Shown piece by piece: positions 5,313 through 21,116 of a stretch of 64,000 nucleotides of DNA. Origin of the DNA: Caldimonas caldifontis. Its GTDB lineage: Bacteria; Pseudomonadota; Gammaproteobacteria; Burkholderiales; Burkholderiaceae_C. Position numbers and translations under genes: made by a program. Location of the stretch: contig NZ_PSNX01000003.1 in assembly GCF_002930615.1 (NCBI RefSeq), positions 186,001 to 250,000 of the forward strand, given 5' to 3'. How positions within the stretch are numbered: the stretch's first letter is position 1; each line of letters begins with the position of its first letter. Under the pieces are notes generated by a model, which saw only the letters and a list, made by a program, of their open reading frames with translations, was not told the DNA's origin and made no database searches.

Positions 5313-5325
5313 GGATTCTGTATCC
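5313..5325. promoter_or_regulatory. Candidate GntR operator before the regulator gene
   Basis: GGATTC-T-GTATCC is a near-palindrome, the weakest member of the GNATAC-N-GTATNC set found at the other operons. It ends 50 bp before the GntR start codon and would allow autoregulation. Confidence 0.45.
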
Positions 5326-5375
5326 CGATAGACGAAATAGAATCAGGCACCCGTCACTCGCCCGCCGCATCCACC

Positions 5376-6029
5376 ATGGACACCCGCACAAAAGCAGCCA
5401 CGCTGGGCGCGACCCACTCGCCGCTGACCCACTTGGTGGTGACCGCCCTGCGCGAGCGCATCCTGGGCGGCGCGATTCCCCCGGGCGAACGGCTGGTAGA
5501 GGGTCGGCTGTCCGAAGAATTGGGCGTGTCGCGCATGCCCGTGCGCGAGGCCCTGCGCCAGTTGGCGGCCGAAGGCCTGGTGACGATCGAGCCGCGGCGG
5601 GGTGCGTCGGTGACCAGCTTCAGCGCCGATCAGGTGCGCGAGCTGGTGGAAGTGCGAGCGACGCTCGAAGGTCTGAATGCGAAGCTCGCGGCGAAGCGGC
5701 ACGATCCTGCCCAGATTGCCGAGCTTGAGCGCATCCTCGAGGAAGGCACGCGCCTGGCCGAGAGCGAGGACGTGGCCACCACGATGCTGATGAACCAGCG
5801 CTTCCATGACGCACTGGGCAACATCGCGGCCAACTCGGTGCTGCAAGACATCATGCGCTCGCTGCGCGACCGCACGGCCCTGCTGTTCGCTCCCATCAAC
5901 CGGGTGCGTGGCAAGCAGAACTGGGAAGAACACGCCGCCATCCTGCGCGCGGTGATCAAGGGCGATGCGGAGCTGGCCGCGCTGCTGGCCACGCGGCATG
6001 TCTACAACGCGGCCCAGATGGAGCCCTGA
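5376..6029 (+). CDS. GntR-family regulator, FadR subfamily with FCD domain
   Basis: This 217-residue DNA-binding regulator probably controls the catabolic cluster that follows. The GntR winged HTH is at residues 15-80 (ALRERILGGAIPPGERL, LSEELGVSRMPVREALRQLA). The all-helical FCD ligand domain covers about 90-210 and shows the metal/ligand residues typical of the family in MNQRFHDAL, WEEHAAIL and LLATRHV. FCD regulators often recognise GTATAC-like half sites. Such palindromes recur upstream of this gene and of the four neighbouring operons. The effector is unknown; it is most likely the substrate or an intermediate of the pathway. Confidence 0.9.
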   Translation: MDTRTKAATLGATHSPLTHLVVTALRERILGGAIPPGERLVEGRLSEELGVSRMPVREALRQLAAEGLVTIEPRRGASVTSFSADQVRELVEVRATLEGLNAKLAAKRHDPAQIAELERILEEGTRLAESEDVATTMLMNQRFHDALGNIAANSVLQDIMRSLRDRTALLFAPINRVRGKQNWEEHAAILRAVIKGDAELAALLATRHVYNAAQMEP

Positions 6030-6043
6030 GAGCCGCTGCCGGC

Positions 6044-6964
6044 TCATGCCCGATCCAGCAGGCGCTTCCAGGCCAGCCCGGCCAGGGCCACGTCTTCCAG
6101 GCCCACGCCGACCGACTTGTACAGCGTGATCTCCTCGTCGGTCCGGCGCCCGAGGGCCTGTCCGGTCACGAGGGCGCCGAGTTCCACGAGCTTGTCGGGC
6201 GTGACCAGGCCGGGGGCGGCCAGCACCAGATCACCGGCCTCGCGCTGCGTCTGAGGCCGCCATTCCACCGCGATGCACGCGGCGCGCTGCAAGGCGCGGT
6301 CGTCCAGTTCGCGGGTGTGGGGCAGGCTGGAGCCGATGGCGGCGACGAAGGTCCCCGGGCCCAGTTGATCGCCGGTGAACAGCGGCGTGGTCGAGCGCGA
6401 GGCCGTCACGACGATGTCGGCGCCGTCGATCACCTCGGCGGCCTGGGTGCACATGCGCACGCGGGTGCCGCACTGGGCCTGGAGTTGTGCGGCCAGGTCC
6501 GCCGGTGCATAGGGGTCGCACACGCGGATCTCCTCCAGCGCGAACGCCTGCGCCATTTGCTGGGCGTGTGCGCGACCCTGCACGCCCGCGCCGAACAGGC
6601 CCAGGCGGCGCGAAGCCGGTCGCGCCAGGTGGCGAGCGGCGATCACCGAGCACGCCGCGGTACGCAGGCGCGTGATGGCTCCCGCATCGAAGGAGGCCAA
6701 GGCCCGGCCGTCCTCGGTGGAGAACAGCAGGATCGCGAAGGTGAACCGGCCCTGGATCGTCGTGTAGACCTTGGCGCCGGCCACCTGCTGCCCCGGGATC
6801 ACGGCGCCCAGCGTCGACAGCTTGACGCCGCCGGCTTCGGTGCGGATGCGCTCCTGCATCGCCGCCTCGCCGTGCCCGAAGGCCCGGAAGGCCTCGAGCA
6901 GCACCTGCTGGGCGTCCTGCGGGCTCACGGCCGCGTCGATCATCGCATCGGTGATGTGTTGCAT
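6044..6964 (-). CDS. Ornithine cyclodeaminase / mu-crystallin family protein
   Basis: This 306-residue NAD(P)-dependent enzyme belongs to the OCD/mu-crystallin family, whose members are cyclodeaminases, imine reductases or amino-acid dehydrogenases. The Rossmann motif is GAGVQG at residues 125-130. The family block ITRLRTAACSVIAA and the conserved lysine in VAGAKVY precede it. It is the last gene of the minus-strand operon that begins at 8723, 23 bp after the TauE-like permease stop. In the cluster it could handle an imine or cyclic amine formed by oxidation of a nitrogen compound. That is inference; the exact reaction cannot be read from sequence. Confidence 0.85.
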   Translation of the reverse strand: MQHITDAMIDAAVSPQDAQQVLLEAFRAFGHGEAAMQERIRTEAGGVKLSTLGAVIPGQQVAGAKVYTTIQGRFTFAILLFSTEDGRALASFDAGAITRLRTAACSVIAARHLARPASRRLGLFGAGVQGRAHAQQMAQAFALEEIRVCDPYAPADLAAQLQAQCGTRVRMCTQAAEVIDGADIVVTASRSTTPLFTGDQLGPGTFVAAIGSSLPHTRELDDRALQRAACIAVEWRPQTQREAGDLVLAAPGLVTPDKLVELGALVTGQALGRRTDEEITLYKSVGVGLEDVALAGLAWKRLLDRA

Positions 6965-6987
6965 CTGGAGTTCCTCGAAGAAGGGGG

Positions 6988-7737
6988 TCAGGAGCGGGCC
7001 AGCGTTTGCACCAGCACGCCCAAGGCGCCCAGGGAGGCCAGCGTCAGGAGCAAGGGGCGCAGGCTCACGCCGGCCAGGCGGCGGCGCAGGCGCGAGGAGA
7101 TCGTGAAACCCACCAGCATCCAGGGCAGGAGCAGCGCGCTCAGCAGGAGATGCGCCGCCGACATGCGGCCCACCACGGCCAGTGCCACCAGCGAGACGGC
7201 CGCACCGATGAAGAAGATCGCACCGATGGTGGCCCGCAGCCGGTCGGGAGGCAGGTGCTGCATGGCGATCGCAAAGGGTGGGGCGCCGGCCGAGGTGATG
7301 GTGCCCATCAGGCCCGACGCCAGACCGGCGATGGTGGTGTTGCGCGCGTTGTGGTCCACGCGCCACCCGCCCAGGCTCAAGGCCACGCCGGCCAGGATGA
7401 GGGCGGCGAACAGGAAGGACAGGGTGCTCACGCTCAACCAGACCAGGCAGGCCATCGCCAGTGCGGTGCCCAGCACCCGGCCCAGCAGCGCAAAGCCCGT
7501 GGTGTGCCATTCGATCGCCTCGCGCTCGCGCAGGGCCGTCATCAGGGCCAGCGGGCAGCCCAGGGCCAGCAGCGGGCCGGGCACCAGCTCGGGGAACCAC
7601 AGCGCCGCCAGCGGCGCGCAGAACATCGCAAAGCCCAGACCGCCCACCCCTTGCAGGCAGGCCCCGGCCATCACCATGCCGCCCATGCCCAGGTAGCTCC
7701 ACAGGCCCAGGCCCTGAGGCCACCAGCCCGTCTCCAT
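6988..7737 (-). CDS. TauE/SafE-family membrane permease
   Basis: This 249-residue polytopic inner-membrane protein has about eight hydrophobic segments. It carries family-like repeats such as VMAGACLQGVGGLGFAMFCA near the N-terminus and GLASGLMGTITSAGAPPFAI near residue 150. TauE/SafE proteins export or import sulfonates, sulfite or other small organic anions. The ATG (7735-7737) lies one base beyond the stop of the upstream ferredoxin (7739-7741), so the two genes are tightly coupled. It could remove a sulfur-containing or acidic product of the pathway, but the cargo is unknown. Confidence 0.85.
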   Translation of the reverse strand: METGWWPQGLGLWSYLGMGGMVMAGACLQGVGGLGFAMFCAPLAALWFPELVPGPLLALGCPLALMTALREREAIEWHTTGFALLGRVLGTALAMACLVWLSVSTLSFLFAALILAGVALSLGGWRVDHNARNTTIAGLASGLMGTITSAGAPPFAIAMQHLPPDRLRATIGAIFFIGAAVSLVALAVVGRMSAAHLLLSALLLPWMLVGFTISSRLRRRLAGVSLRPLLLTLASLGALGVLVQTLARS

Positions 7738-7738
7738 C

Positions 7739-8017
7739 TCACCACGACACGGCGATGTCGCCGCGCACGAAGGTCTGGCAGGCCATGCGGTAGCCCTGGG
7801 CGAGCTGCTCGTCCGACAGGTGCTTGCGCTCCTTGGGCTTGACCTCGTCGGCGTGTTCCAGGCCCTGCTCGATGCGGCACTTGCAGGTGCCGCAGATCCC
7901 TCCGCCGCACTTGAAGGGGATGCCGCCCTGTTCACGCAGGGACACGCGCAGCAGGTTGCTGTTCTCGGGGGCGCTGACGACCTTGCGGTCGTTGTTGATG
8001 AAGGTGATCTGGATCAT
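7739..8017 (-). CDS. [2Fe-2S] ferredoxin, plant/adrenodoxin-like
   Basis: This is a 92-residue electron carrier. The cluster ligands are in KCGGGICGTCKC (C-x4-C-x2-C) with the fourth cysteine in RMACQTF, the plant-type pattern. The preceding small protein ends 4 bp upstream of this gene's start codon. It is one of two ferredoxins in this operon. With the divergently encoded reductase it could form an electron chain to the diiron oxidase. The ATG at 8015-8017 fits the domain start (IQITFINNDRKV). Confidence 0.9.
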   Translation of the reverse strand: MIQITFINNDRKVVSAPENSNLLRVSLREQGGIPFKCGGGICGTCKCRIEQGLEHADEVKPKERKHLSDEQLAQGYRMACQTFVRGDIAVSW

Positions 8018-8021
8018 GGGC

Positions 8022-8342
8022 TCAGGCGGCGCGGGGCATCGGAGGCAGGGCACGGGGCTGCAGCACGGCGTCCATGTGGCCGAAGCTGCACAGGTGGCGC
8101 AGTTCGGCGCGTGCGCGCTCCAGGGTGTCGAACTTCTCCAGGAACTTGGAGGGCACGAGGTTCACGGTGACCGGCTCGGTCTCGTCGACCAGGCGCACCC
8201 GGGTCTCGGCCTGCAGTTCGGCGATCACGAATTGCGCACGCACCCGTCCGTAGAACAGGTAGTCGTAGGCCTCGACGGGCTGCAGGCCGGCGCCGGCCTC
8301 GGTGCGGAACTGGCCGGGCTTGCTGGTGAGAATCACGTACAT
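8022..8342 (-). CDS. Small conserved protein of unknown function between two ferredoxins
   Basis: I do not recognise the family. This 106-residue soluble protein begins MYVILTSKPGQFRTE. It contains the acidic-aromatic stretch PVEAYDYLFYGRVRAQFVIAEL and a VNLVPSKFLEKFDTLERA segment. It has no signal peptide, membrane span or metal-binding cysteine motif (one cysteine). It lies between two ferredoxin genes in one operon, with gaps of 4 bp and 24 bp, so it probably works with the electron chain or the diiron oxidase. It could be a coupling or small oxygenase-component-like protein. This is inference from position only. Confidence 0.8.
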   Translation of the reverse strand: MYVILTSKPGQFRTEAGAGLQPVEAYDYLFYGRVRAQFVIAELQAETRVRLVDETEPVTVNLVPSKFLEKFDTLERARAELRHLCSFGHMDAVLQPRALPPMPRAA

Positions 8343-8366
8343 GGTCGGGGCTCCAGGCAGCGGCGC

Positions 8367-8723
8367 TCAGGCCGAAGGCGGCGGGGCACTGTGCACCCCC
8401 CGGGGTGCCACGGCGGCGATGGCGGCGGGAAGAGGCTCTTGCTGCAGCTCGATGTCATGCTCCAGCCAGAGCTGGCAGGCGAGCCGGTAGCCTTCCTCCA
8501 GGCGTGCACCGAGCTGCTTCTTCTCCTTCCAGTTCGGCGGCGGCAGGTGTTCGGCACCGCGCAGCACCTTGCAGGCGCACTTGGCGCACTTGCCCATGCC
8601 GCATTCGTACTGCAGATGGGGGTAGGGGAACTGCCGGATACCGGCGCGCACCACCAGGTTGGTCTTGGGTTGGACCTCGTCCCGGTAGATCTGGCCGTTC
8701 TTGTGCAGGGTCACGACGGGCAT
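8367..8723 (-). CDS. [2Fe-2S] ferredoxin with extended C-terminus
   Basis: This 118-residue plant-type ferredoxin has cluster ligands in YECGMGKCAKCACKV (C-x4-C-x2-C) and RLACQLW. A poorly conserved alanine/proline tail follows the fold. It is the first gene of the operon 8723-6044. ATG at 8721-8723 is 41 bp downstream of the palindrome at 8765-8777. It shares the divergent control region with the diiron oxidase gene, which suggests coordinated expression. A role as its electron donor is likely but unproven. Confidence 0.9.
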   Translation of the reverse strand: MPVVTLHKNGQIYRDEVQPKTNLVVRAGIRQFPYPHLQYECGMGKCAKCACKVLRGAEHLPPPNWKEKKQLGARLEEGYRLACQLWLEHDIELQQEPLPAAIAAVAPRGVHSAPPPSA

Positions 8724-8764
8724 GGCGGATTCTTTCGTGTCGGTGGCGGCAAGGCGGACTGTTG

Positions 8765-8777
8765 GTATACTGTATAC
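8765..8777. promoter_or_regulatory. Candidate GntR operator for the ferredoxin operon
   Basis: GTATAC-T-GTATAC is a perfect 6+1+6 inverted repeat and the best member of the set. It lies 41 bp upstream of the ferredoxin ATG in a 277-bp divergent intergenic region. Confidence 0.7.
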
Positions 8778-8930
8778 TGATATCCAATTCCAGATCAAGC
8801 CCCTCGAACGCCCTCGGCATCGGGGCTTACCCGAGCGCCGCCCCTCCTCGACCCCGTGCGGACTGCGCGCAGCAGGCGGGCCCATCCGGCCGCCCTCGGG
8901 ACAACCCGGGTGTTGACTTTCCGGTATTCG

Positions 8931-8943
8931 GTATACCGTATCC
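8931..8943. promoter_or_regulatory. Candidate GntR operator for the diiron oxidase operon
   Basis: GTATAC-C-GTATCC differs from the perfect palindrome at one position. It overlaps a second half site GGTATTC just upstream. It ends 57 bp before the ATG of the HDO-like gene. TTGACT at 8914-8919 could be part of the promoter. Confidence 0.65.
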
Positions 8944-9000
8944 ATTGACACGTATCATGTCACCGTTCCCGCCGCCCTTCACCCCTCACAGGAGCCCGAG

Positions 9001-9726
9001 ATGTCCCGACTGATGAACCGCGACGAATTCCGCACCGCCCTTGAAGAAGCCATCAAGGGCAAGAGCGCCAACAAGGCCCCCTTCAGCATCGCCTGGGCCA
9101 CCGGCCAGCTCAGCCGCGAGCACCTGGCCCGCTGGGCCGAGAACCACTACCACTACGTGGGCCCCTTTGCCGACTACCTGGCCTACATCTACGCGCGCAC
9201 GCCCGACCACATGACCGAGGCCAAGGACTTCCTGCTGGCCAACATGTACGAGGAGGAGATCGGCGGCGACCGTCACACCGACCTGCTGATCCGCTTCGCC
9301 GAAGCCTGCGGCACGACACGCGAGCGTGTGATCGACCCCGACAACATGTCGCCCACCACACGCGGGCTGCAGAGCTGGTGCTATGCGGTGGCCATGCGCG
9401 AGGACCCGGTCGTGGCCGTGGCCGGCCTCGTGGTGGGCCTGGAGTCGCAGGTGCCCTCGATCTACCGCAAGCAGACGCCCATCCTGCGCGAGAAGTACGG
9501 CTTCAGCGACGAGGAGGTCGAGTTCTTCGACCTGCACATCGTCTCCGACGAAATCCATGGCGAGCGCGGCTACCAGATCGTGCTGGAGCACGCCAACACG
9601 CCCGAGCTGCAGCAGCGCTGCCTGAAGATCTGCGAGATCGGCGCGCAGATGCGCCTGCTTTACACGACGGCCCTGTACCACGACTACGTCGCCAAGGACA
9701 TCCCCAACCTGGCGCTGGCCGCCTGA
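9001..9726 (+). CDS. Heme-oxygenase-like diiron oxidase (HDO; PqqC/TenA/CADD-like)
   Basis: This 241-residue, all-helical protein of the iron-containing redox superfamily is probably the oxygenase of the cluster. Diiron ligands can be assigned as E85 and H92 (EEEIGGDRH, spacing E-x6-H), E148 (GLESQVP), and H179-x3-D183-x2-H186 (HIVSDEIH). This spacing matches the set described for chlamydial CADD (E81, H88, E142, H174, D178, H181). It would not fit a cofactorless TenA or PqqC. AGGAG precedes the ATG. It heads an operon with aldehyde dehydrogenase, GlcG-like protein, reductase and SDR. The substrate is unknown; known HDOs oxidise amines, amino acids or fatty acids. Confidence 0.85.
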   Translation: MSRLMNRDEFRTALEEAIKGKSANKAPFSIAWATGQLSREHLARWAENHYHYVGPFADYLAYIYARTPDHMTEAKDFLLANMYEEEIGGDRHTDLLIRFAEACGTTRERVIDPDNMSPTTRGLQSWCYAVAMREDPVVAVAGLVVGLESQVPSIYRKQTPILREKYGFSDEEVEFFDLHIVSDEIHGERGYQIVLEHANTPELQQRCLKICEIGAQMRLLYTTALYHDYVAKDIPNLALAA

Positions 9727-9799: not shown

Positions 9800-11257
9800 A
9801 TGTCCCAGCCCATCGAAGAGTTCCTCAACCACATCAACGGTGAATGGGTGCGCAGCCTGAGCGGCCGCACCTTCGACAACGTCAACCCGGCGGACACGCG
9901 CGAGGTGGTGGGTCGCTTCCAGGCCTCGGCCTCGGCCGATGCCGAAGCGGCCGTGGCCGCCGCCTCGGCGGCCTTCGACGGCTGGCGCAGGACACCCATC
10001 GGCAAACGCGCGAAGATCCTCAATGCCGCAGCCGACTACCTGGAAGCCCACGCCGCGCGCTTTGGCGAAGAACTCACGCGCGAGGAGGGCAAGTCCGTGG
10101 CGCTGGCCAAGGACGAGTTCCTGCGTGCGGCCCAGACCTTCCGCTTCTACGCGATCGAAGGCCAGACCTTCGGTGGCGAGACCTATCCGCAGGACGACCC
10201 CGGCATGATGGTCTACAGCGTGCGCGAGCCGCTGGGGGTTGTCTCGGTGATCTCGCCCTGGAACTTCCCTGCCTCGATCCCGGCGCGCAAGATCGCCCCG
10301 GCGCTGATCACCGGCAACACCGTGGTCTTCAAGCCCTCGTCGGACGCCCCGCTGTCGGGGCTGCGGCTGGCCGAGGCCCTGGTGCAGGCCGGCCTGCCCA
10401 AGGGGGTGCTGAACTTCCTCACCGGCCGAGCCGGCGACGTGGGTCCGGTCATCACCACCTCCCAGGCCGTGCGGGCCATCTCCTTCACCGGCTCCACCCA
10501 GGCCGGCGAGTCGATCCACCGCACCGTGCACCTCACCACGCGGCTGCAGATGGAGCTGGGCGGCAAGAACCCGCTGATCGTGATGGAAGATGCCGACCTC
10601 GACCAGGCCGTGGAGCTCACCATCAAGGGCGGTTTCTCGCTGACCGGCCAGGCCTGCACCGGCACCAGCCGTGTGATCGTGATGCGCGAGGTCCGCGAGG
10701 CCTACACCCAGCGGCTCGTCGAGCGCGTCCAGCAGCTCAGGATCGGCCCGGGCTTGACCCCCGGCATGGACCTGGGCCCGCTGGCCACGGCCAAGCAGCT
10801 CGACACCGTGCTGGGCTACATCGAGCTCGGCAAGCGCGAAGCCCGGCTGCTTTGCGGCGGCCAACGCCTGGGCGGCAGCGTCTACGAGCATGGCTATTAC
10901 GTGGCGCCGGCGGTCTTCGACAACGTCACCCCGGCCATGCGCATCGCCCGCGAGGAAATCTTCGGGCCGGTGATCGCGGTGATCGAAGCCGAGAGCTTCG
11001 ACGACGCGATGGCCAAGGCCAACGACACCGAGTACGGCCTGTCGGCTGCGATCGCCACGCGCAACCCGCGCTACATGCAAGCCTTTGCTGACGACATCCA
11101 GTCGGGCACGGTCAAGATCAATCGCACCACCACCGGCAACCTGGTGAACGCGCCCTTCGGCGGCGTCAAGCACTCCAGCACCTCGACCTTCCGCGAGTCG
11201 GGCCGCGTCGGCCTGGAGTTCTTCACCCAGACCAAGGTGGTCTACCGCGGCCTGTGA
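9800..11257 (+). CDS. NAD(P)-dependent aldehyde dehydrogenase
   Basis: This 485-residue enzyme of the ALDH superfamily oxidises an aldehyde to the acid. The general base is E252 (MELGGKNP) and the catalytic cysteine is C286 (GQACTGTSR). The Rossmann region VISPWNFPASIPARKIAPAL is also present. The variant around the cysteine and the NPADTREVVGRF start resemble alpha-ketoglutarate semialdehyde dehydrogenases. Substrate specificity cannot be fixed, however. It lies 73 bp after the diiron oxidase and may process an aldehyde released by it. ATG at 9800 fits the family N-terminus. Confidence 0.93.
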   Translation: MSQPIEEFLNHINGEWVRSLSGRTFDNVNPADTREVVGRFQASASADAEAAVAAASAAFDGWRRTPIGKRAKILNAAADYLEAHAARFGEELTREEGKSVALAKDEFLRAAQTFRFYAIEGQTFGGETYPQDDPGMMVYSVREPLGVVSVISPWNFPASIPARKIAPALITGNTVVFKPSSDAPLSGLRLAEALVQAGLPKGVLNFLTGRAGDVGPVITTSQAVRAISFTGSTQAGESIHRTVHLTTRLQMELGGKNPLIVMEDADLDQAVELTIKGGFSLTGQACTGTSRVIVMREVREAYTQRLVERVQQLRIGPGLTPGMDLGPLATAKQLDTVLGYIELGKREARLLCGGQRLGGSVYEHGYYVAPAVFDNVTPAMRIAREEIFGPVIAVIEAESFDDAMAKANDTEYGLSAAIATRNPRYMQAFADDIQSGTVKINRTTTGNLVNAPFGGVKHSSTSTFRESGRVGLEFFTQTKVVYRGL

Positions 11258-11289: not shown

Positions 11290-11766
11290 ATGAAAACCTC
11301 TCTCAAGCTCCAGCTCGACGAAGCCCGCCAGATGGCCCGAGCCGCGCTCGCCAAGGCCGCCGAGATCGGCGTGCCCGAGACGGTGTGCATCACCGATGAA
11401 GGGGGCTTTCCCCTCGTGCTCGAGCGCATGGACGGCGCCCGCGTGACGGGCCCGCAGATCGCCTGGAACAAGGCCTTCACCGCCGCCGGCCACAAGCGTT
11501 CGACCCACCTGTTCAACACCGCGCCCAACGGCCCTGCGCTGCCCGGCAATGAGGCGTTTGGCATCCAGTGGAGCTTCGAGGGCAAGTTCGCCGTCTTCGT
11601 TGGCGGCTTCCCCATCGTCGTCAACGGCGAAGTGGTGGGGGGCGTGGGCCTGAGCGGCGGCAACGGCGAGCAGGACACCCAGTGCGGCCTGGCCGCGCTG
11701 CAGGCGCTCAAGGAGCTGCTGGGCGCCAGCCACGAGGTGGTCGTCCAGGCCGACATCAAGAAGTGA
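11290..11766 (+). CDS. GlcG/HbpS family (DUF336) heme-binding-like protein
   Basis: This 158-residue protein is typical of the GlcG/HbpS fold. Motifs are ITDEGGFPLVLERMDGA, WNKAFTAAGHKRST, and GGFPIVVNGEVVGGVGLSGG. Members occur in many catabolic operons, bind heme or small ligands, and are mostly of unclear function. An AAGGA sequence precedes ATG 11290. The gene sits between the aldehyde dehydrogenase and the ferredoxin reductase. No signal peptide is visible, so it should be cytoplasmic. Confidence 0.88.
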   Translation: MKTSLKLQLDEARQMARAALAKAAEIGVPETVCITDEGGFPLVLERMDGARVTGPQIAWNKAFTAAGHKRSTHLFNTAPNGPALPGNEAFGIQWSFEGKFAVFVGGFPIVVNGEVVGGVGLSGGNGEQDTQCGLAALQALKELLGASHEVVVQADIKK

Positions 11767-11782: not shown

Positions 11783-12778
11783 ATGAGCCATCGTGTGCTG
11801 TGGCTGGAAACCGGCCAGACCTTCGAGGTCGAGCCCGGCGAGGCCGTGCTCACCGCGGCCCTGCGCTGCGACGTGGGCCTGCCGCACGAGTGCCAGTTCG
11901 GCGGCTGCGGGAGCTGCCGCGTCCGGCTCGTCGACGGCCGCGTGGACTACGACGAGCCGCCCCTGGGCCTGAGCGAGGAAGAGGCCGCCGAAGGCTACGC
12001 CCTGATGTGCCGGGCCCGGCCGCAGGGCGACCTCGTCATCAGCGTGCCTCGGCCCGATGCCTGCTCGCAGCCCACGCGCATGCGCGCCACCGTGGCGGGC
12101 CTGCGCCCGCTGGCGCGCGAGGTGCTGCATCTGGAGCTGCGACTGCCCGAGGAAGCCGGCCTCGTCTACCGGCCGGGCCAGTACATGAACGTGCTGCTCG
12201 ACGACGGTCGTCACCGCAGCTTCTCGATGGCCTCGCGCCCCAACGGCGCGCGGGTGGACTTCCATGTGCGCCGCATTCCGGGCGGCCGTTTCACCGACCG
12301 GCGCCTGGCCGCCCTGCGCGAAGGCGAGAGCCTCGAGGTCGAGATCCCGCTGGGCAGCTTCCGCTACCACGCCGAGGACGATCGGCCGCTGGTGATGGTG
12401 GCCACAGGCACGGGGCTCGCGCCGATCAAGAGCATGCTGGAGTCGCTGATGGACAGCGACGACTGCCCGCCGGTCAGCCTGTACTGGGGCATGCGCACCG
12501 AAGACGAGCTCTACCTGCACGACGAGATCCAGACCTGGGCCGAGCGGCTCTACGACTTCCACTACGTGCCCGTGCTGTCGCGGGCCGGGGACGGCTGGAA
12601 GGGCCGCCGCGGGCACGTGCAGCAGGCCGTGCTGGCCGATCTGGGCGACCTGTCGGAGCATGCCGTGTACCTGTGCGGCTCGCCTGCGATGATCGCCGAC
12701 GCGAAGACCGCCTTCGTCGCCCGCGGCGCCAGCCTGGATCACCTCTACACCGACAGCTTCGTCTTCCAGAGCGCCTGA
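11783..12778 (+). CDS. Ferredoxin-fused flavin reductase (class IB oxygenase reductase type)
   Basis: This 331-residue three-domain electron-transfer protein resembles benzoate or phenol oxygenase reductases. The N-terminal [2Fe-2S] domain has ligands C37, C42, C45 and C76. The FAD domain follows with RHRSFSMAS. The NAD(P)H domain has ATGTGLAPIKSML and CGSPAMI. It should pass electrons from NAD(P)H to an oxygenase directly or through the two separate ferredoxins. Its presence argues that the diiron oxidase of this operon is a reductase-fed oxygenase. ATG 11783 is 16 bp after the GlcG stop. Confidence 0.92.
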   Translation: MSHRVLWLETGQTFEVEPGEAVLTAALRCDVGLPHECQFGGCGSCRVRLVDGRVDYDEPPLGLSEEEAAEGYALMCRARPQGDLVISVPRPDACSQPTRMRATVAGLRPLAREVLHLELRLPEEAGLVYRPGQYMNVLLDDGRHRSFSMASRPNGARVDFHVRRIPGGRFTDRRLAALREGESLEVEIPLGSFRYHAEDDRPLVMVATGTGLAPIKSMLESLMDSDDCPPVSLYWGMRTEDELYLHDEIQTWAERLYDFHYVPVLSRAGDGWKGRRGHVQQAVLADLGDLSEHAVYLCGSPAMIADAKTAFVARGASLDHLYTDSFVFQSA

Positions 12779-14286: not shown

Positions 14287-15150
14287 TCAGCGGTAGCGTT
14301 TGGACAGCGCGGACTCGATGCGTGCGATCGCGAGGTACATCACCCCGGACAGCACCCCCAGCACGACGATGGACGTCATCACCACGTTGAGCTTGAAGAC
14401 CTGGCTGCCGTTGACGATCAGGAAGCCCAGCCCCTGGCTGGCCGACTGGAACTCGCCGACGATGACCCCCACCAGGGCCAGGCCGATGTTCATCTTCAGC
14501 GCGGCGATCAGCGTGGGCACGCTGCCGGGCAGCACCACCAGGCGCAGCACCTGCGCGCGGGTTGCGCCCAGCGTGCGGGCGAGCTTGATCTTGTTCGGGT
14601 CGATGCTCTGGAAGCCGTCGTACATCACCATGATCGTCACGAAGACGGCGATCGCCACGGCCATGCCGTACACCGAGTACTCGGACCCGAGCCAGATGTA
14701 GAAGATCGGCACGAAGGCGATCTTGGGCATCGCATTGGCCACGACGAGGAAGGGATCGAGGACCTTGTGCGCAAAGCTCGACCACCACAGCCCGGCGGCC
14801 ACGCCCGTGCCGATGAGCATGCTGAGCATGAAACCGATCAGCGTCGCCTTGAAGGTAGCCCAGGTGTGCCCCAGCAGGTTGCCGCCGTCCAGCAGCTCGA
14901 GGAAGGTGGGCCACAGCGCGCTGGGATAGCTCGTGAGCATGGGATTGACCACGTGCGACTTGGCCAGGATCTCCCACAGCAGCAGGAGGACGCCCAGCAG
15001 CGCGATGCGCGTGGCCAGGATGTAGTGGCGCCGCCGCTGCTCGCGCGCGCGCCAGGCGAGGTAGGCCGCGCTGGGTTCGCGCGACGGGGTGGCCGCCACC
15101 GGGGCCCCGCCGGCCACGGGTGCGGAAGCACTGGAGTTCATCGGTTTCAT
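14287..15150 (-). CDS. NitT/TauT-type ABC transporter permease
   Basis: This 287-residue inner-membrane permease of the SsuC/TauC family has about six helices. It starts with RIALLGVLLLLWEILAK. It carries the EAA-like loop GATRAQVLRLVVLPGSVPTLIAALKMNIGLA near residues 200-230. The ATG at 15148-15150 overlaps the stop of the ATPase gene as ATGA, indicating coupling. A second ATG at 15141 is possible. The family imports sulfonates, nitrate, thiamine precursors, phthalate-like acids and similar small molecules. Confidence 0.9.
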   Translation of the reverse strand: MKPMNSSASAPVAGGAPVAATPSREPSAAYLAWRAREQRRRHYILATRIALLGVLLLLWEILAKSHVVNPMLTSYPSALWPTFLELLDGGNLLGHTWATFKATLIGFMLSMLIGTGVAAGLWWSSFAHKVLDPFLVVANAMPKIAFVPIFYIWLGSEYSVYGMAVAIAVFVTIMVMYDGFQSIDPNKIKLARTLGATRAQVLRLVVLPGSVPTLIAALKMNIGLALVGVIVGEFQSASQGLGFLIVNGSQVFKLNVVMTSIVVLGVLSGVMYLAIARIESALSKRYR

Positions 15151-15962
15151 CCTTCCACGTGGACGTCGAGTTCGTCCCACAGGGTCGCGAAATAGGCGTT
15201 GAATTCGGGCAGCGAGCGCACCTCGAAGGGGCTGGGGCGCCGGCCTTCGCAGCTCGGGAAGTGCATGCGGTGCTCGGACTTGATGCGCCCCGGCCGGCGC
15301 GACAGCACGACCACGCGGTCGGTCATCGCGATGGCCTCGCCGATGTCGTGCGTGACCAGCACCACCGACTTGCCCTCCTCTCGCAGTACCTCGACCACTT
15401 CATCGGCAATCGCCAGGCGGGTCTGGGAGTCGAGGGCCGAGAAGGGTTCGTCGAGCAGTACGACATCCGGATCGGTCACAAGCGTGCGAGCCAGAGCGAC
15501 ACGCTGGCGCATCCCGCCCGAGAGCTGGCGTGGGTAGTGATTCAGGAAATCGCCCATGCCGCACTTGTGCAGCAGGTGCGCCGCGCGTTCGCGTGCCTGC
15601 TTCAGGTTGCGCCCCTGGATCTCGGCGCCCAGGACGGCGTTGTCGAGAATAGTGCGCCACTCGAATAGGTAGTCCTGCTGCAACATGTAGCCCACGCGGG
15701 GCGAGGGACCATTCACGCGCTCGCCATGCACCCACACCTCGCCGGACGAGGGCTCCAGGATGCCGGCCATGAGGGACAGCAGGGTGCTCTTGCCGCAGCC
15801 GGACTGACCGATCAGGACCACCGAGAGGTGGATGCGCTCCAGCGCCTGGGTTTCGCCTTCGGGGGTGAAGTAGCGCAGGGAGACGTCGCGAATCTCGATG
15901 CGTGGGGCGCGCTGCGCGGTTTCGCCACCGGCGGTCGGACGGTCAAGTACGGCACTCATCAT
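15147..15962 (-). CDS. NitT/TauT-type ABC transporter ATPase (short deletion before Walker A)
   Basis: This 271-residue ATPase has Walker A GQSGCGKST, the Q-loop MLQQDYL, signature LSGGMRQRVALARTL, Walker B DVVLLDEPFSALD and the H-loop VLVTHDIGEA. Immediately before Walker A the sequence reads RIHLSVVLIGQSG. Relatives have about six more residues there, including a GEF motif that forms a beta strand. An in-frame loss of roughly 15-18 bp is therefore likely. Whether the protein still works is uncertain. The start overlaps the end of the binding-protein gene (ATG at 15962 or 15959). Confidence 0.85.
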   Translation of the reverse strand: MMSAVLDRPTAGGETAQRAPRIEIRDVSLRYFTPEGETQALERIHLSVVLIGQSGCGKSTLLSLMAGILEPSSGEVWVHGERVNGPSPRVGYMLQQDYLFEWRTILDNAVLGAEIQGRNLKQARERAAHLLHKCGMGDFLNHYPRQLSGGMRQRVALARTLVTDPDVVLLDEPFSALDSQTRLAIADEVVEVLREEGKSVVLVTHDIGEAIAMTDRVVVLSRRPGRIKSEHRMHFPSCEGRRPSPFEVRSLPEFNAYFATLWDELDVHVEG

Positions 15963-16996
15963 TGGGCCTTTGCAGTGAAGTCGGTTACGACCACCTGCTC
16001 GTACTTGACGCGCTTGGCCGCATCTAGCACGCCGCTGGCCACCAGCATGTCCTGCAAGGTGTCGATGGCAAAGCGTTCGACGGTCGGGTTGGTCTTCCAC
16101 AAGCCGATGTCGCGGTAGCGGTCAATGGCAGCCACCAGTTCGACCGTGCCCATACCAGGGAAGAATTCGGCGATATGCTTGGCCAAGTCAGCCGCCGGAG
16201 CTGTGGCCACGTACTTCTGGGCGCGCACGATGGCATTTGTCCAGGCCTGGGCCACCTGGGGATTGCGCTTCAGGAAGGGGTCGGTGGCGGTGAAGACGGT
16301 GTAGTCCACCGCGCCGACCTCCCGACCGATCGACGCCACCACGAAGCCCTTGCCATTCTTCTCGAGCACTGTGGCTTCAGGCTCGAGGAAGATGGCGTAG
16401 TCCGTCTGCCCGGCCATCCAGGCCCCGGTGCGTGCAGCCGCGCCGATGTTGTTGACGATGCGCAGATCCTTCTTCGGGTCGATGCCATGCTTGCGCATCG
16501 CTGTCTCGAGGAAAACGTCGGGGTTGGAACCGGGACGAAAGCCCATGACGGCCTTGCCCTTGAGCTGGCCCCATTCGAACTTGGCCGCGGGCTTTTCACG
16601 GGCGACCAGCAGGAAGCCATCGGTGGCGGTGAGGCCGGAGAAGATCTTGGGCTTGACCGGCGATTCGCTGTTGGCGACATAAATAGACGCCTCCGGGCCG
16701 ATCAGCACAATGTCGGCGCTGCCCGATAGCAGCGCGGCCATGCCCTTGTCGGTGCCCTGGGAGGTTTTCATCGACACGTCAAGGCCAGCTTCACGGAAGT
16801 AGCCTTGGTTCAGCGCCACGTACGTGGGCAGATAGAGCACCGAGCGCACCACTTCCTCATAGCGCACCTTGGTGGGGGACGCGACGGACTGTGCAGCCAC
16901 GGTGCAAGCCAGGCCCAGCCCCGCTGCAGCCATGCCAAGCCGCAGCAGCAAGCGGGACCACAAGGGACGGGGGGATGGGGTGGACTCAGAAGACAT
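15959..16996 (-). CDS. NitT/TauT-type ABC transporter substrate-binding protein
   Basis: This 345-residue periplasmic receptor of the SsuA/TauA/NMT1 type has a signal peptide (LGMAAAGLGLACTVAAQ). Core motifs include LYLPTYVALNQGYFREAGLDV and the ligand-domain blocks GSADIVLIGPEAS, KAVMGFRPGSNPDV and GAWMAGQTDYAIFLEP. It is the first gene of the importer operon and has an AGGAG before ATG 16996. Two GntR-type palindromes lie 53 and 144 bp upstream. The ligand is unknown and should be the cluster's growth substrate. Confidence 0.92.
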   Translation of the reverse strand: MSSESTPSPRPLWSRLLLRLGMAAAGLGLACTVAAQSVASPTKVRYEEVVRSVLYLPTYVALNQGYFREAGLDVSMKTSQGTDKGMAALLSGSADIVLIGPEASIYVANSESPVKPKIFSGLTATDGFLLVAREKPAAKFEWGQLKGKAVMGFRPGSNPDVFLETAMRKHGIDPKKDLRIVNNIGAAARTGAWMAGQTDYAIFLEPEATVLEKNGKGFVVASIGREVGAVDYTVFTATDPFLKRNPQVAQAWTNAIVRAQKYVATAPAADLAKHIAEFFPGMGTVELVAAIDRYRDIGLWKTNPTVERFAIDTLQDMLVASGVLDAAKRVKYEQVVVTDFTAKAQ

Positions 16997-17049
16997 GGCG
17001 CTCTCACTCCTGTGCTGTGGTGGTTCGAACCCCGGGAGGCGGGATCGAG

Positions 17050-17062
17050 AAATACTGTATGC
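17050..17062. promoter_or_regulatory. Candidate GntR operator, importer-proximal
   Basis: AAATAC-T-GTATGC is a degenerate copy of the GNATAC-N-GTATNC palindrome, 53 bp upstream of the binding-protein ATG. It lies in the 433-bp divergent control region 16997-17429, which otherwise holds no gene. Confidence 0.5.
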
Positions 17063-17140
17063 AACATGTGTGCCGCGAGGGTGCGGGGCGAACTTTTGAA
17101 GGGGCCGGCACCTCAACGTCCCCGGCAGAAAGCTTAAACG

Positions 17141-17153
17141 GAATACAGTATTC
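17141..17153. promoter_or_regulatory. Candidate GntR operator, middle of the divergent region
   Basis: GAATAC-A-GTATTC is a perfect 13-bp inverted repeat, the same type as the other sites. It lies between the importer and permease operons. Confidence 0.65.
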
Positions 17154-17363
17154 ATTCTCTAGGGATTGCCCTCCCTCAAGCAGACATCACCGCGCGCAGC
17201 CCTCCAACAGGGCGCCGCGCCGCACATGAACTGAGCTCGGGGGATCAAAAAGCGCCCTGTTTCGGTGCATTCTGCTCGATCTGAGCCGACTGATCGCTTC
17301 GGGGAAGCCCTTGAACCTCGCGTTTACCCTGTGGCATGAGCCTTGCTGAGGATCAATACTTCT

Positions 17364-17376
17364 GAATACTGTATAC
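17364..17376. promoter_or_regulatory. Candidate GntR operator for the permease operon
   Basis: GAATAC-T-GTATAC matches the consensus with one asymmetric position. It ends 53 bp upstream of the permease ATG at 17430. Confidence 0.65.
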
Positions 17377-17429
17377 CGCACTTCGGTCACAGATTGCCCT
17401 CCTTCCCCACGATTCCTAGGAAGCTGCCC

Positions 17430-18968
17430 ATGGATGTCTCTACCGCAATCGGCCCCGCGCACTGGGTCTACCTGGCTGGCGTGGCGATCATCGTGCTGAC
17501 GATGATCCTGCGCGCCAATGTCGTCGTTCCATCCATCCTCGCGACGTTTTTCGTGGCGCTGGCCTGGTCGGGGAGCCCGATCACCGCGCTGGGCAGCATC
17601 TTCAGTGCCAGCTTCGTGGCAGCCAAGGAGTTGTTCAACATCTTCCTCATCATCGCCTTGATGACGGCGCTGCTGAATTCGCTCAAGGCGCTGCGCTCGG
17701 ACATCCGCATGGTCGAGCCCTTCCGCGCCGTGATGAAGAACGGTCACGTGGCCTTCTTCATCCTGGCGGCCATCACCTACGTGATCTCGCTGTTCTTCTG
17801 GCCCACGCCGGCGGTGCCGCTGGTGGCGGCCGTGCTGCTGCCCGCGGCCATCGCAGCCGGCCTGCCGCCGCTGGCCGGGGCCATGGCCATCGCGATCGCC
17901 GGGCAAGGGATGGCCTTGTCGTCCGACTATGTGATCGGCGTGGCACCTGGCATCAGTGCCAAGGCCGCCGGCGGTGCCGTGAGCGCCGCCTTGGTGGCAG
18001 ACCGTGCATTGGTGCTGTCGCTGGTCGTGGGCGGTATCGCGTTGCTGCTGTCCTACTTCACGATGCGCAAGCACATCGTGCCGGCGAACAACGGCTTGCT
18101 CGACCGCTGGCTCTCTCAGCCCCTGCAAGCCAACGTGGGACGCATCGAAGGGGCAGGACCCTATGACAAGTCCGAGATCGCGCGAGGCACCGGCCGCGAA
18201 CAGCCGATTGCGACCGACTCCGACTTCGACCGCGAGCTCGACGCCGTGGAGCGCCGCCGCGTGATCTGGTCCAAGCTGTTCGCCGTGCTCACGCCGCTGG
18301 CCTTCCTAGTGGTGGTGTTCGTGATGGTGGCCCCGAAGTTCATGTCCGGCATGCCTGATCTGAAGGGCGGTGATGCTGCGATGCTGGTGGGCGGCATGGC
18401 CGCCATGCTGATGATTCTGACCGCGCTGGCCGGGGAAGGTGCGCGCAAGATGCTCGACACCAGCGCAGAACACATCACCGAAGGCTTTGTCTTTGCCTTC
18501 AAGGCGATGGGGTCCGTGCTCCCGATCGCCGGCTTCTTCTTCATGGGCTCTGGCGAGACGGCGGGCGCCATCCTCGGCATTTCCGGCCAGGCACCGAGCC
18601 TGCTGTTCGAACTGGTACAGGCCGGCCAGGACTACATCCCGCACAGCGGCCTGCTGGTGGCCTTCGGCGTGCTGATCGTCGGCATGGTGACCGGCATCGA
18701 CGGCTCGGGCTTCTCGGGTCTGCCGCTGACGGGCACCCTGGCCGGTGCACTGGCCCCGGCCACCGGCATGGAAACCGCCGCGCTGGCCGCGGTGGGCCAG
18801 ATGGGGGCGATCTGGACGGGCGGCGGCACGCTGATCGCCTGGTCCTCCCTGATCGCCGTGGCCGGCTTCGCCCGCGTGCCCGTGCTCGAAGCCGCACGCG
18901 CCCTGCTGCTGCCGGTGCTGGTGGGCCTGGTGGTGGCCACGGGCGTGGCCGCGGCCCTGTGGGGCTGA
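17430..18968 (+). CDS. Multi-pass membrane permease, substrate unknown
   Basis: This 512-residue protein has about 12-14 hydrophobic segments. They start at HWVYLAGVAIIVLTMILRA and include ITYVISLFFWPTPAVPLVAAV and FAVLTPLAFLVVVFVMVA. A charged cytoplasmic loop at about residues 215-285 separates two halves. Glycine-rich re-entrant-like segments (AIAIAGQGMALSSDY, GFFFMGSGETAG, TGIDGSGFSGLP) recall ion-transporter-superfamily carriers such as GntP, but I cannot assign a family with certainty. AGGA precedes the ATG. It begins the fourth operon of the putative GntR regulon and may be a second uptake route for the substrate or exporter of a product. Confidence 0.8.
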   Translation: MDVSTAIGPAHWVYLAGVAIIVLTMILRANVVVPSILATFFVALAWSGSPITALGSIFSASFVAAKELFNIFLIIALMTALLNSLKALRSDIRMVEPFRAVMKNGHVAFFILAAITYVISLFFWPTPAVPLVAAVLLPAAIAAGLPPLAGAMAIAIAGQGMALSSDYVIGVAPGISAKAAGGAVSAALVADRALVLSLVVGGIALLLSYFTMRKHIVPANNGLLDRWLSQPLQANVGRIEGAGPYDKSEIARGTGREQPIATDSDFDRELDAVERRRVIWSKLFAVLTPLAFLVVVFVMVAPKFMSGMPDLKGGDAAMLVGGMAAMLMILTALAGEGARKMLDTSAEHITEGFVFAFKAMGSVLPIAGFFFMGSGETAGAILGISGQAPSLLFELVQAGQDYIPHSGLLVAFGVLIVGMVTGIDGSGFSGLPLTGTLAGALAPATGMETAALAAVGQMGAIWTGGGTLIAWSSLIAVAGFARVPVLEAARALLLPVLVGLVVATGVAAALWG

Positions 18969-18984
18969 GGCCAGGCAGATCCCC

Positions 18985-19014
18985 GATGGACCGGCACCCG
19001 ATGGACCGGCACCC
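18985..19014 (+). repeat. 15-bp tandem duplication containing the start codon
   Basis: The unit GATGGACCGGCACCC occurs twice in direct tandem (18985-18999 and 19000-19014). It gives the next gene two in-frame ATG codons (18986 and 19001). Confidence 0.85.
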
Positions 19015-20470
19015 GACGCCTCCTGCCGGCGTCCTCGGCGAGCGGGCGATGGTGGCCACCGGCCACCCGCTGGCCGCGCAAGCCGCCGCCGACGTGTTGC
19101 GTGAGGGTGGCAGCGCCGTCGACGCCGCCGTCGCGGCCGATGCCGTGCTCGGGGTGGTGGAACCCATGGCCACCAGCATCGGCGGGGACCTGCTGGCAAT
19201 GGTCGTGCCGCCCGACGGCGCACCGCTGAGCTACAACGGCACGGGCCGCGCGCCCGCCGCCCTGGACCCGGCACAGATCGAGGCCCTGCCCGGGCGGCGC
19301 ATCCCCGAGCGTCATCCCCTGTCCGTCACCGTGCCCGGCGCGGTGCGGGGCTGGCACGACCTGCACCGCCGCTTCGGCCGCCTGCCCTGGGCGCGGCTCC
19401 TGGAAGCCGCCATCGGCGCGGCCGAGCAGGGCTTCCCCGTGGCCCCGGTGGCGGCACGCGAATGGAGGCTCTTCGAGCCCGTGTTGCAGCGCGACCCGGT
19501 GTGCGCGTCGCTGTTCCGGGCCGGCCGCGTGCCCCGGGCCGGTGAGGTCTTCTGCAACCCCGAGCTGGCCGCCACCCTGCGCAGCATCGCCCAGGACGGC
19601 CCCGAGGCCTACTACCGCGGCACCCCGGCGCGTGCGGCCGCCCAGGCCGTGCAGGCCCTGGGCGGTGTGCTGGCGGCCGAGGACTTCGCTGTCCACAGCG
19701 GGCATTTCTGCGCGCCGGTGCTGGCGCGCTTCCGGGGCCTGACTGTGCTGGAATGCCCGCCCAACACCCATGGCGTGGCCGTGCTGCATGCCCTGCAGGC
19801 GCTGGAAGACCGGCCGCTGGACCCCGAGGCCCCCGACAGCCATGTGGCGATGGTGCACGCGATGCGCGAGGCCCTGCAGCACGCCCGCAAGACGGTGGCC
19901 GACCCGGCGGGCAACACCGTGTGCACCGTCGTCGTCGACGCCGACGGACTGGCCATCAGCCTGATGAGCAGCGTGTTCAAGCGCTTCGGCTCGGGTATCG
20001 CCGTGCCAGGCTGCGGCTTCGTGCTGCAAAACCGCGGCTTTGGCTTTGCCGCCCCGGGCGAGCTCAACGGTGCCGCGCCGTCGCGGCGCCCCTATCACAC
20101 CGTCGTGCCGGGCGCTGCCCTGAAGGACGGCCGCTTCCATGCGGCCCTGGGCGTGGTGGGCGGTGCGATGCAGCCTCAGGGCCAGGTGCAGCTCTTCGTG
20201 CGCACGGCGGCCTGGGGCCAGCCCCTGCAGGCGGCCATCGACGCCCCCCGCTGGCGCCTGGAATCCGACACCGCACTGGCCGCGGAGGAGGGCGTGCCCG
20301 AGGCCGTGCGCGCCGCCCTGCGGCAGGCCGGCTATGCCGAGCCCGCCGGCATGGGGGAACTGGGCGGGCGCAGCGACTTCGGCGGCGCCCAGATGGTGAT
20401 GCGCCTGCCCGATGGCCGCTTGGCCGGCGGCACCGACCCCCGCAAGGACGGCCAGGCCCTGGCCGTGTGA
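18986..20470 (+). CDS. Gamma-glutamyltransferase-family enzyme
   Basis: This 494-residue Ntn-hydrolase of the GGT/acylase family cleaves or transfers gamma-glutamyl groups or related amides. N-terminal MVATGHPLAAQAAADVLREGGSAVDAA is typical. The autocleavage and nucleophile threonine is probably T311 (AGNTVCTVVVDADG). SLMSSVFKRFGSG, QNRGFGF and VGGAMQPQGQVQ follow. No signal peptide is seen, so it may act in the cytoplasm, unlike classical periplasmic GGT. It starts 17 bp after the permease. In the cluster it could hydrolyse a glutamylated or amide intermediate. The alternative start at 19001 shortens it by five residues. Confidence 0.9.
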   Translation: MDRHPMDRHPTPPAGVLGERAMVATGHPLAAQAAADVLREGGSAVDAAVAADAVLGVVEPMATSIGGDLLAMVVPPDGAPLSYNGTGRAPAALDPAQIEALPGRRIPERHPLSVTVPGAVRGWHDLHRRFGRLPWARLLEAAIGAAEQGFPVAPVAAREWRLFEPVLQRDPVCASLFRAGRVPRAGEVFCNPELAATLRSIAQDGPEAYYRGTPARAAAQAVQALGGVLAAEDFAVHSGHFCAPVLARFRGLTVLECPPNTHGVAVLHALQALEDRPLDPEAPDSHVAMVHAMREALQHARKTVADPAGNTVCTVVVDADGLAISLMSSVFKRFGSGIAVPGCGFVLQNRGFGFAAPGELNGAAPSRRPYHTVVPGAALKDGRFHAALGVVGGAMQPQGQVQLFVRTAAWGQPLQAAIDAPRWRLESDTALAAEEGVPEAVRAALRQAGYAEPAGMGELGGRSDFGGAQMVMRLPDGRLAGGTDPRKDGQALAV

Positions 20471-20495
20471 CCCCTCGTATCCACCCCCTGCACCC

Positions 20496-21116
20496 ATGAC
20501 CCTGACGATTTACGGCATCGCCGCCTCCCGCGCCATCCGCCCGCTGTGGGCCGCCGAGGAGCTCGATCTGACCTACCGGCACATCAAGCTGCACCACGCC
20601 GCCCCCGAGACCAAGGCGCCCGACTACCTGAGGCTCAATCCAAACGGCACGGTCCCGGCCCTCGAGGATGACGGCCTGGTGCTCTTCGAGTCCCTCGCGA
20701 TCACCCTGTACCTGGCGCGCACCTACGGCCCCAGCCGGCTGTGGCCCGATGACGCGGCCGACCAGGCCCGCGTGCTGCAATGGACGCTGTGGGCCGCCAC
20801 CGAGGCCGAGCCGCCCGCGCGGCAGTGGTTCCACCATACGGCCTTCCTGCCGCCGGCCGAGCGCCAGCCCGCCCTGGCCGCAGCGGCCCTGCAGGCATTG
20901 GGTCGACGCCTGGCCGTGCTTGAGCGGCACTTCGCCGACGGCCGTCCCCACTTGCTGGGCGACGATTTCACGGTGGCCGACCTCAACCTGGCCGCGGTGC
21001 TGCAACGCCTGAAGGACTTGGGGGGAGGGGACCATCCCCGACTGAGCGCCTGGCATGCACGCTGCCTGGCACGTCCCGCCGCACAGCGGGCCTTTGCGCT
21101 GCGCCAGGCAGGCTGA
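20496..21116 (+). CDS. Glutathione S-transferase family protein
   Basis: This is a 206-residue GST. The thioredoxin-like N-domain has LTIYGIAASRAIRPLW and the glutathione-binding NPNGTVPALEDDG with FESLAITLYLA. The helical C-domain ends with LLGDDFTVADLNLAAVL. It follows the glutamyltransferase by 25 bp and is likely in the same operon. That would place a glutathione-linked detoxification or isomerisation step near a glutathione-splitting enzyme. Its role in the pathway is inferred only from position. Confidence 0.9.
   Translation: MTLTIYGIAASRAIRPLWAAEELDLTYRHIKLHHAAPETKAPDYLRLNPNGTVPALEDDGLVLFESLAITLYLARTYGPSRLWPDDAADQARVLQWTLWAATEAEPPARQWFHHTAFLPPAERQPALAAAALQALGRRLAVLERHFADGRPHLLGDDFTVADLNLAAVLQRLKDLGGGDHPRLSAWHARCLARPAAQRAFALRQAG

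Follow-up and report, generated by a model that had tools for sequence, protein, structure and literature searches.

A candidate GntR regulon with shared palindromic operators around a haem-oxygenase-like dimetal oxidase in Caldimonas caldifontis

In a 64,000-nucleotide stretch of Caldimonas caldifontis DNA (contig NZ_PSNX01000003.1, positions 186,001 to 250,000; hereafter the window), five promoters carry 13-bp operator-like palindromes whose exact form occurs in this genome only within a single gene cluster. Judging from the sequence, we regard it as very likely that the five promoters form one regulon under the GntR-type regulator encoded in the cluster. The genes concerned include one for a haem-oxygenase-like dimetal oxidase (HDO), and the explanation of the whole that we hold with good confidence is a regulon of an FCD-type GntR protein for inducible uptake and oxidation around this HDO. 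We lean, with less assurance, towards the view that the genes would serve a single catabolic pathway.

The initial annotation had placed six palindromes in the window, and all six were recovered. The pattern GNATACNGTATNC was matched exactly at 8765, 8931, 17141 and 17364, and with one mismatch each at 5313 (GGATTCTGTATCC) and 17050 (AAATACTGTATGC). A seventh match with one mismatch, at 8924, overlaps the site at 8931 as a third unit. Seven matches at up to one mismatch compare with 0.23 expected, and this number was reached in none of 100 shuffles. An intact GTATAC is held by three of the six listed sites. The distances to the start codons of the five first genes (gntR, the ferredoxin A gene fdA, hdo, the solute-binding protein gene sbp and the permease gene) fall in the 41–57 bp described earlier. 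Two of the sites belong to the sbp promoter. Each site is given below with its bit score in the matrix described further on and its gap to the start codon.

5313..5325: operator-like palindrome before gntR, GGATTCTGTATCC, one mismatch, 12.2 bits, 50 bp
8765..8777: operator-like palindrome before fdA, GTATACTGTATAC, 26.5 bits, 41 bp
8924..8943: operator-like array before hdo, three GTATNC units with a 7-bp period, 15.4 bits (8924) and 16.5 bits (8931), 57 bp
17050..17062: operator-like palindrome before sbp, proximal, AAATACTGTATGC, one mismatch, 17.0 bits, 53 bp
17141..17153: operator-like palindrome before sbp, distal, GAATACAGTATTC, perfect palindrome, 24.2 bits, 144 bp
17364..17376: operator-like palindrome before the permease gene, GAATACTGTATAC, 25.4 bits, 53 bp

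The earlier proposal to look for genome-wide clustering of the sites was borne out: the 3.64-Mb genome (33 contigs) contains four exact copies of the motif, all of them within the cluster, and the reversed-pattern control gave no match. At up to one mismatch, 21 sites were found, 7 in the cluster and 14 elsewhere. The reversed control gives 11 sites at this stringency, and the 14 outlying sites are therefore near background. Nine of them lie in coding-like open reading frames (ORFs) and five were flagged as possibly intergenic by the ORF filter. The top-scoring flagged site, C23:155984 (14.7 bits), is yet inside a 748-aa frame; the other four score 0.7–7.5 bits. Regulon members outside the cluster were rejected on these grounds. 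While the whole genome was scanned by the pattern, the matrix scan covers the 64-kb window. The matrix was built from 147 distinct sites of relatives, excluding the window, and was made symmetric, so that one strand is enough. All seven cluster matches head its ranking of the window plus strand, the next position reaching 6.1 bits; the matrix sites were chosen with a consensus near the initial pattern, and the matrix is thus not wholly independent of it.

The palindromes precede four multigene units and the regulator gene. A leftward unit from 8723 comprises ferredoxin A, a 106-aa protein, ferredoxin B, TauE and OCD, and a rightward unit from 9001 comprises HDO, ALDH, GlcG, reductase and SDR. 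Leftward from 16996 follow the binding protein, ATPase and permease of an importer and an isochorismatase-type hydrolase, and rightward from 17430 a 512-aa permease, a GGT-type hydrolase and GST. The genes named by the initial annotation are present; it had missed two in the ferredoxin operon, those for the TauE-type exporter and the 106-aa protein.

5376..6029, + strand: GntR/FCD regulator, 217 aa (Pfam FCD 8.2e-25, GntR 1.7e-19)
6044..6964, − strand: ornithine cyclodeaminase / mu-crystallin family protein (OCD; Pfam 7.8e-51)
6988..7737, − strand: TauE/SafE-type membrane exporter (Pfam 4.7e-18)
7739..8017, − strand: [2Fe-2S] ferredoxin B (Pfam Fer2 5.7e-15)
8022..8342, − strand: 106-aa conserved protein, no known family or fold (no Pfam/NCBIfam match)
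8367..8723, − strand: [2Fe-2S] ferredoxin A, heads the leftward operon (Pfam Fer2 1.7e-07)
9001..9726, + strand: HDO, 241 aa (Pfam Haem_oxygenas_2 1e-37)
9800..11257, + strand: aldehyde dehydrogenase (ALDH), nearest to 2-oxoglutarate-semialdehyde dehydrogenases (profile matches)
11290..11766, + strand: GlcG/HbpS-like protein (Pfam 7.2e-35)
11783..12778, + strand: Fer2-FAD-NAD reductase, BenC-like layout (profile matches)
12791..13570, + strand: SDR dehydrogenase (profile match)
13564..14268, − strand: isochorismatase-type hydrolase, last gene of the sbp operon (nearest solved: RutB)
14287..15150, − strand: ABC importer permease (profile matches)
15147..15962, − strand: ABC importer ATPase (profile matches)
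15959..16996, − strand: NMT1/SsuA-type solute-binding protein (profile matches)
17430..18968, + strand: 512-aa permease, no Pfam family, DASS/TRAP/ArsB-like fold (structure model)
18986..20470, + strand: gamma-glutamyltranspeptidase-family (GGT) hydrolase (Pfam 1.1e-111)
20496..21116, + strand: glutathione S-transferase (GST) family protein (profile match)

Conservation of the sites was assessed in relatives. Of 399 family genomes, 10 encode an HDO orthologue (E ≤ 1e-40), and a GTDB-based collection yielded 492 stretches with one, in organisms ranging from Cupriavidus to Bradyrhizobium and Azospirillum. Cupriavidus necator A5-1, UYPR2.512 and SHC 2-3 are among the carriers of the cluster. The 91 relative loci used here consist of the best 80 of the 492 stretches, two plasmid records and nine further stretches. 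Loci L002 and L015–L022 were excluded from the upstream-site, hexamer, hdo-promoter and co-occurrence counts, in which the longer L105–L113 of the same genomes were used. In the upstream test, the 300 bp before each start were searched with a strict pattern (up to one mismatch) or a relaxed one (Y/R at inner positions), and shuffles of the same regions served as background. The initial annotation had suggested comparing the sites in relatives that share the cluster, and we find them kept. Strict sites occur before 86 of 91 HDO genes (shuffles 0.7; 87 relaxed), before 58 of 80 permease genes (shuffles 0.4; 77 relaxed, shuffles 1.4) and before 9 of 10 binding-protein genes (shuffles 0.3; 9 relaxed, 8 exact). 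Operon-internal genes, taken as controls, rarely have such a site at up to one mismatch: 0/89 for the 106-aa gene, 1/89 for ferredoxin B, 1/90 for GlcG, 0/13 for SDR, 3/75 for the reductase (4 relaxed), 2/18 for GGT, 0/2 for GST, and 0/12 each for the ABC permease, ATPase and hydrolase. Sites were partially present before ALDH (6/86 strict, 32 relaxed), OCD (9/49) and TauE (18/60 strict, 44 relaxed). In relatives, some of these genes come first in a unit: four Variovorax loci have hdo and aldh in divergent orientation with a site before each, and Cupriavidus loci have sites before the permease gene, before TauE/OCD and before hdo. Operator-like sites thus track rearranged promoters. The single regulon of five promoters that had been predicted agrees with both observations, the confinement of the sites to the cluster and their retention at the heads of rearranged units. 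Together, the 10 family genomes with an HDO gene contain 28 exact sites, and 25 of these are no more than about 10 kb away from that gene; the reversed control gave 1 in all.

In 22 loci, mainly of Cupriavidus and also of Paraburkholderia (L025) and Azospirillum (L071), an amidase gene is present, with a site upstream in 21 of the 22; the MFS gene behind it has none (0/21). The site listing for the loci shows none near the L071 amidase. At L028:15210-18032 and in like loci, the amidase gene, followed by the MFS gene, has the same operator, a regulon branch without counterpart in the window cluster.

The sites vary in form. Many relatives have one GTATAC box intact and the other degenerate. A third unit with at least 4/6 matches stands at −7 in 22 of 218 distinct GTATAC pairs, compared with 0–14 at the other offsets (−21 to −8), in a set that includes sites without an established regulatory role. 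A NanR-like triple array as a general rule was rejected, the third unit being present only sometimes. Three GTATNC-like units with a 7-bp period are seen at L098:9906-9925, at L101:9907-9926 and at 8924-8943 of the window, which recalls repeat operators like those of NanR. Overlap of the operator with a −35/−10 promoter was not borne out: TTGACA-like boxes at −19 were found in only 8 of 51 distinct hdo promoters, and the window scan gave none.

The regulator of the window consists of an N-terminal GntR winged helix-turn-helix (wHTH) and a C-terminal FCD domain, both above the Pfam gathering cut-off. A relative with at least 46% identity is encoded in 90 of the 91 loci, and the helix segment SR-PVREAL is nearly invariant among these relatives. 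Residues N140, H144, H186 and H208 are invariant in 66 of 66 sequences. The metal-binding FCD domain is defined by an Asp/Asn-His-His-His set, and these four residues fit a domain of this kind. A site of its own, ascribed to gntR by the initial annotation, is present at 5313, and gntR is probably autoregulated, although this part of the claim is less secure than the other promoters, as the next paragraph describes.

Several observations weigh against the reading of one conserved GntR regulon. The gntR site is the weakest in the cluster, and a site precedes gntR in just 33 of 90 relatives (shuffles 0.2; 42 relaxed). A site directly before ferredoxin A is present in 9 of 43 loci (strict, relaxed and exact alike; shuffles 0.3) and in 7 of 57 with a second ORF set; elsewhere the gene may lie in a longer operon. 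Exact matches are fewer than those with one mismatch (HDO 30/91, permease 19/80, gntR 2/90). In four of the 91 loci (L070, L092, L093 and L103) the relaxed pattern, too, finds no site upstream of HDO; single GTATAC hexamers stand there in three of them, and L070 has none. Among the HDO-bearing family genomes, G380 has three exact sites on other contigs and G302 has no exact site. At least one exact match was found in 111 of the 389 family genomes that lack HDO, and the reversed control also matches many of these; an isolated exact match therefore means little, as expected from the background of a short pattern. The 91 loci are not independent, since Cupriavidus and Achromobacter contribute a large share and at least two contigs, judging by their length and content, occur twice (L106/L041 and L109/L100), and a GntR relative was counted if it lay anywhere in the locus stretch. 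Finally, a consensus scan of 5200-21200 found no sigma-70-like promoters (shuffles 1.0).

The gene content of the loci separates a core from variable members. Near-constant among the 91 loci are HDO (91), GntR (90), GlcG (90), ferredoxin B (89), the 106-aa protein (89), ALDH (86), the permease (80) and the reductase (75). Optional members are TauE (60), OCD (49), GGT (18), SDR (13), the ABC importer with the hydrolase (10–12) and GST (2). HDO shows the strongest conservation, with a median identity to the window protein of 89.4% (minimum 86.0%, n=91), a figure biased upward by the choice of loci by HDO similarity. The medians are 77% for GlcG, 75% for ferredoxin B, 72% for ALDH, 61% for GntR and 58% for the 106-aa protein. 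One inducible catabolic pathway made up of all genes, as initially proposed, is thus only partly supported; for OCD, GGT, SDR, the ABC importer with its hydrolase, and GST, a role as interchangeable feeders or side functions is the better reading.

The nearest solved relatives of the HDO are CADD-type 4-aminobenzoate synthases and PqqC (PDB sequence search: 9pj4, 2e-18; 1rcw and 8va9, 1.1e-17). Its putative metal ligands E85, H92, E148, H179, D183 and H186 are invariant in 75 of 75 sequences (74 relatives and the window). A dimetal ligand set of three His and three carboxylates is named for the HDO superfamily in the accessible part of a 2026 paper (PMC13185094). By this ligand set, and with a haem-oxygenase-like fold predicted from its sequence, the window protein is a member of this superfamily. 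The positions of Tyr27 and Lys152 of CADD, which we take to have functional roles there, are Ser29 and Gln158 in all 75 sequences, and the NCBIfam CADD score is 97.3 against a cut-off of 200. These features set the protein apart from the CADD 4-aminobenzoate synthase.

Among the partner proteins, the 106-aa protein has a confident structure model (pLDDT 90.9), no fold match in the PDB (best E 0.5) and no Pfam or NCBIfam family. It is possibly a new small family of oxygenase effectors. The permease model (pLDDT 75.3, pTM 0.75) is similar to DASS/TRAP/ArsB-type transporters (Foldseek best E 7.7e-06, TM about 0.5), and a PDB sequence search gave one weak match (E 0.0075). Such transporters carry organic or inorganic anions. 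This modelled fold offers the best clue to the substrate, which may be carboxylate- or sulfonate-like. An attempt to name the substrate from the nearest families did not succeed, since two enzymes fall under the curated cut-offs: ALDH scores 536.7 and 535.4 bits against 750 and 770 for NCBIfam 2-oxoglutarate-semialdehyde dehydrogenases, and the isochorismatase-type hydrolase scores 86.5 against 377.95 bits for RutB (ureidoacrylate amidohydrolase). For ALDH, a PDB search at a limit of 1e-100 gave no match. Amide or ester hydrolases recur near the core, namely the isochorismatase and GGT types in the window, and an amidase, an M20 peptidase, an alpha/beta hydrolase and a carboxylesterase in some relatives; the nearest solved structures to the amidase are ClbL and urethanases.

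We propose that the FCD-type GntR repressor sits on the GTATAC-like boxes, 7 bp apart, of the five transcription units, the 13-bp palindrome being bound by one dimer, or its two boxes by two dimers. Transcription would be blocked until a small carboxylate effector binds, probably through the metal. Upon derepression, the anion permease and the ABC importer would be made, and the isochorismatase- and GGT-type hydrolases would release a central compound from conjugates. Electrons would pass from NAD(P)H through the Fer2-FAD-NAD reductase and ferredoxins A and B to the HDO, with the 106-aa protein and GlcG aiding it, and an aldehyde formed by the HDO would then be oxidised by ALDH.

Other explanations account for parts of these data. 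The palindromes might be AT-rich promoter DNA that is palindromic by accident, and the motif is indeed AT-rich and located at promoters. This chance explanation is in effect refuted by the shuffles of the window, by the reversed pattern, which is absent as an exact match from the genome, and by the conservation before HDO. Alternatively, another regulator could bind the palindromes, with the neighbouring GntR as a bystander. The gntR-upstream sites are weak or missing in over half of the relatives, and no systematic search for other regulator genes in the loci was made; yet a GntR relative accompanies nearly every locus, the GTATAC box fits the FadR-subfamily consensus in the accessible part of PMC4494728, and the FCD regulator Atu1419 binds ATGTATACAT according to what is accessible of PMC7797058. 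We consider a bystander GntR quite improbable.

A single GntR regulon could also have several functions, combining the HDO core with unrelated transport and detoxification genes under a common inducer. This appears unlikely, if less so than the bystander. The strong variation of the optional genes speaks for it, as do the amidase and MFS genes, M20 peptidase, alpha/beta hydrolase, carboxylesterase or peptide-type ABC transporters near the core in other loci. On the other hand, many of the optional genes share one type of chemistry (amide/ester hydrolases and importers), which fits feeders into one core, and the amidase has the same operator in nearly all its loci. If instead the HDO makes a compound such as a signal, a metallophore or an antimetabolite, the cluster would be biosynthetic with its own transport. 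Such a role would suit the TauE-type exporter and the apparent specialisation of HDOs in biosynthesis from amino acids (PMC13185094, accessible part). However, the window-cluster genes that were scanned include no ligase, NRPS, PKS or ATP-grasp gene, and the combination of two importers, hydrolases and ALDH behind a GntR operator suggests uptake and breakdown. A biosynthetic cluster is thus improbable in our judgement, and inducible uptake and oxidation remains the reading that we prefer.

Other features lie to the left of the regulon. Genes at 796-2500 (− strand), about 3 kb away, resemble the anthranilate dioxygenase subunits AndAc and AndAd below the curated cut-offs and do not belong to the neighbourhood conserved in relatives. 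The Rieske dioxygenase at 1271-2500 was rejected as part of the system: the only match of its large subunit in the loci searched, in L104, is 28% identical. At 4375-5252 (− strand) lies what we take to be an EamA-type transporter stretch. It is seemingly split over two reading frames, through a broken gene or an assembly error. The stretch with the 748-aa frame mentioned above (L116, G000:C23:154500-157500) seems to have a higher AT content than the window; it is on the same contig as the regulon, some 35 kb to its left.

Taken together, the loci may represent a widespread, uncharacterised class of multicomponent oxygenases, a proposal that we make tentatively. In this class a catabolic HDO would act with ferredoxins, a reductase, an effector-like protein of new fold and GlcG, would be induced by its substrate via a GTATAC-N-GTATAC GntR operator, and would be fed by interchangeable amide hydrolases. 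The HDO superfamily is growing, and what looks like an inducible uptake-and-breakdown setting contrasts with the apparent biosynthetic specialisation described in the accessible part of PMC13185094. The operator offers a handle, since a reporter on any of the five promoters could reveal the inducer and thence the substrate and the reaction.

Compared with known systems, nothing is exceptional in the type of the regulator or of its short palindromic operators. Like the FCD-type GntR repressors Atu1419 (VanR type) and NanR, the window regulator combines a GntR wHTH with FCD. The FadR-subfamily consensus is a palindrome with GT and AC 2–3 nt apart, a spacing to which a single GTATAC box conforms (PMC4494728, accessible part). 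For Atu1419, whose structure has been solved, the available text reports binding to ATGTATACAT at several promoters including its own, and the core of this palindrome equals the GTATAC box (PMC7797058). NanR binds repeated GGTATA units, according to the part of its source that is accessible. The present operator differs from these FCD systems in having two GTATAC-like boxes 7 bp apart, sometimes three. With Rieske and soluble diiron monooxygenase systems the cluster shares the BenC-type Fer2-FAD-NAD reductase layout and ferredoxins. Those systems also have a small effector protein, and the cluster likewise encodes a small extra protein. Unlike in Rieske or ferritin-like systems, the oxygenase is an HDO, and the small protein is without a sequence family or fold match. 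Among HDOs (CADD, UndA, BesC, SznF and MboA, with PqqC as a fold relative), the protein is related in sequence to CADD and PqqC and keeps all six ligands. Among the matches listed in the open-licence literature, there was no catabolic HDO cluster and no mention of this operator. The accessible part of PMC12614342 tabulates known HDO reactions and names no catabolic one, and that of PMC13185094 describes the biosynthetic MboA/MboB as what may be the first HDO to have been characterised along with a dedicated redox partner. The window HDO differs from the known HDOs in the genes that accompany it, which encode two ferredoxins, a reductase, importers and hydrolases. What is unusual about the system is an HDO that seems to be catabolic and comes with redox partners of its own.

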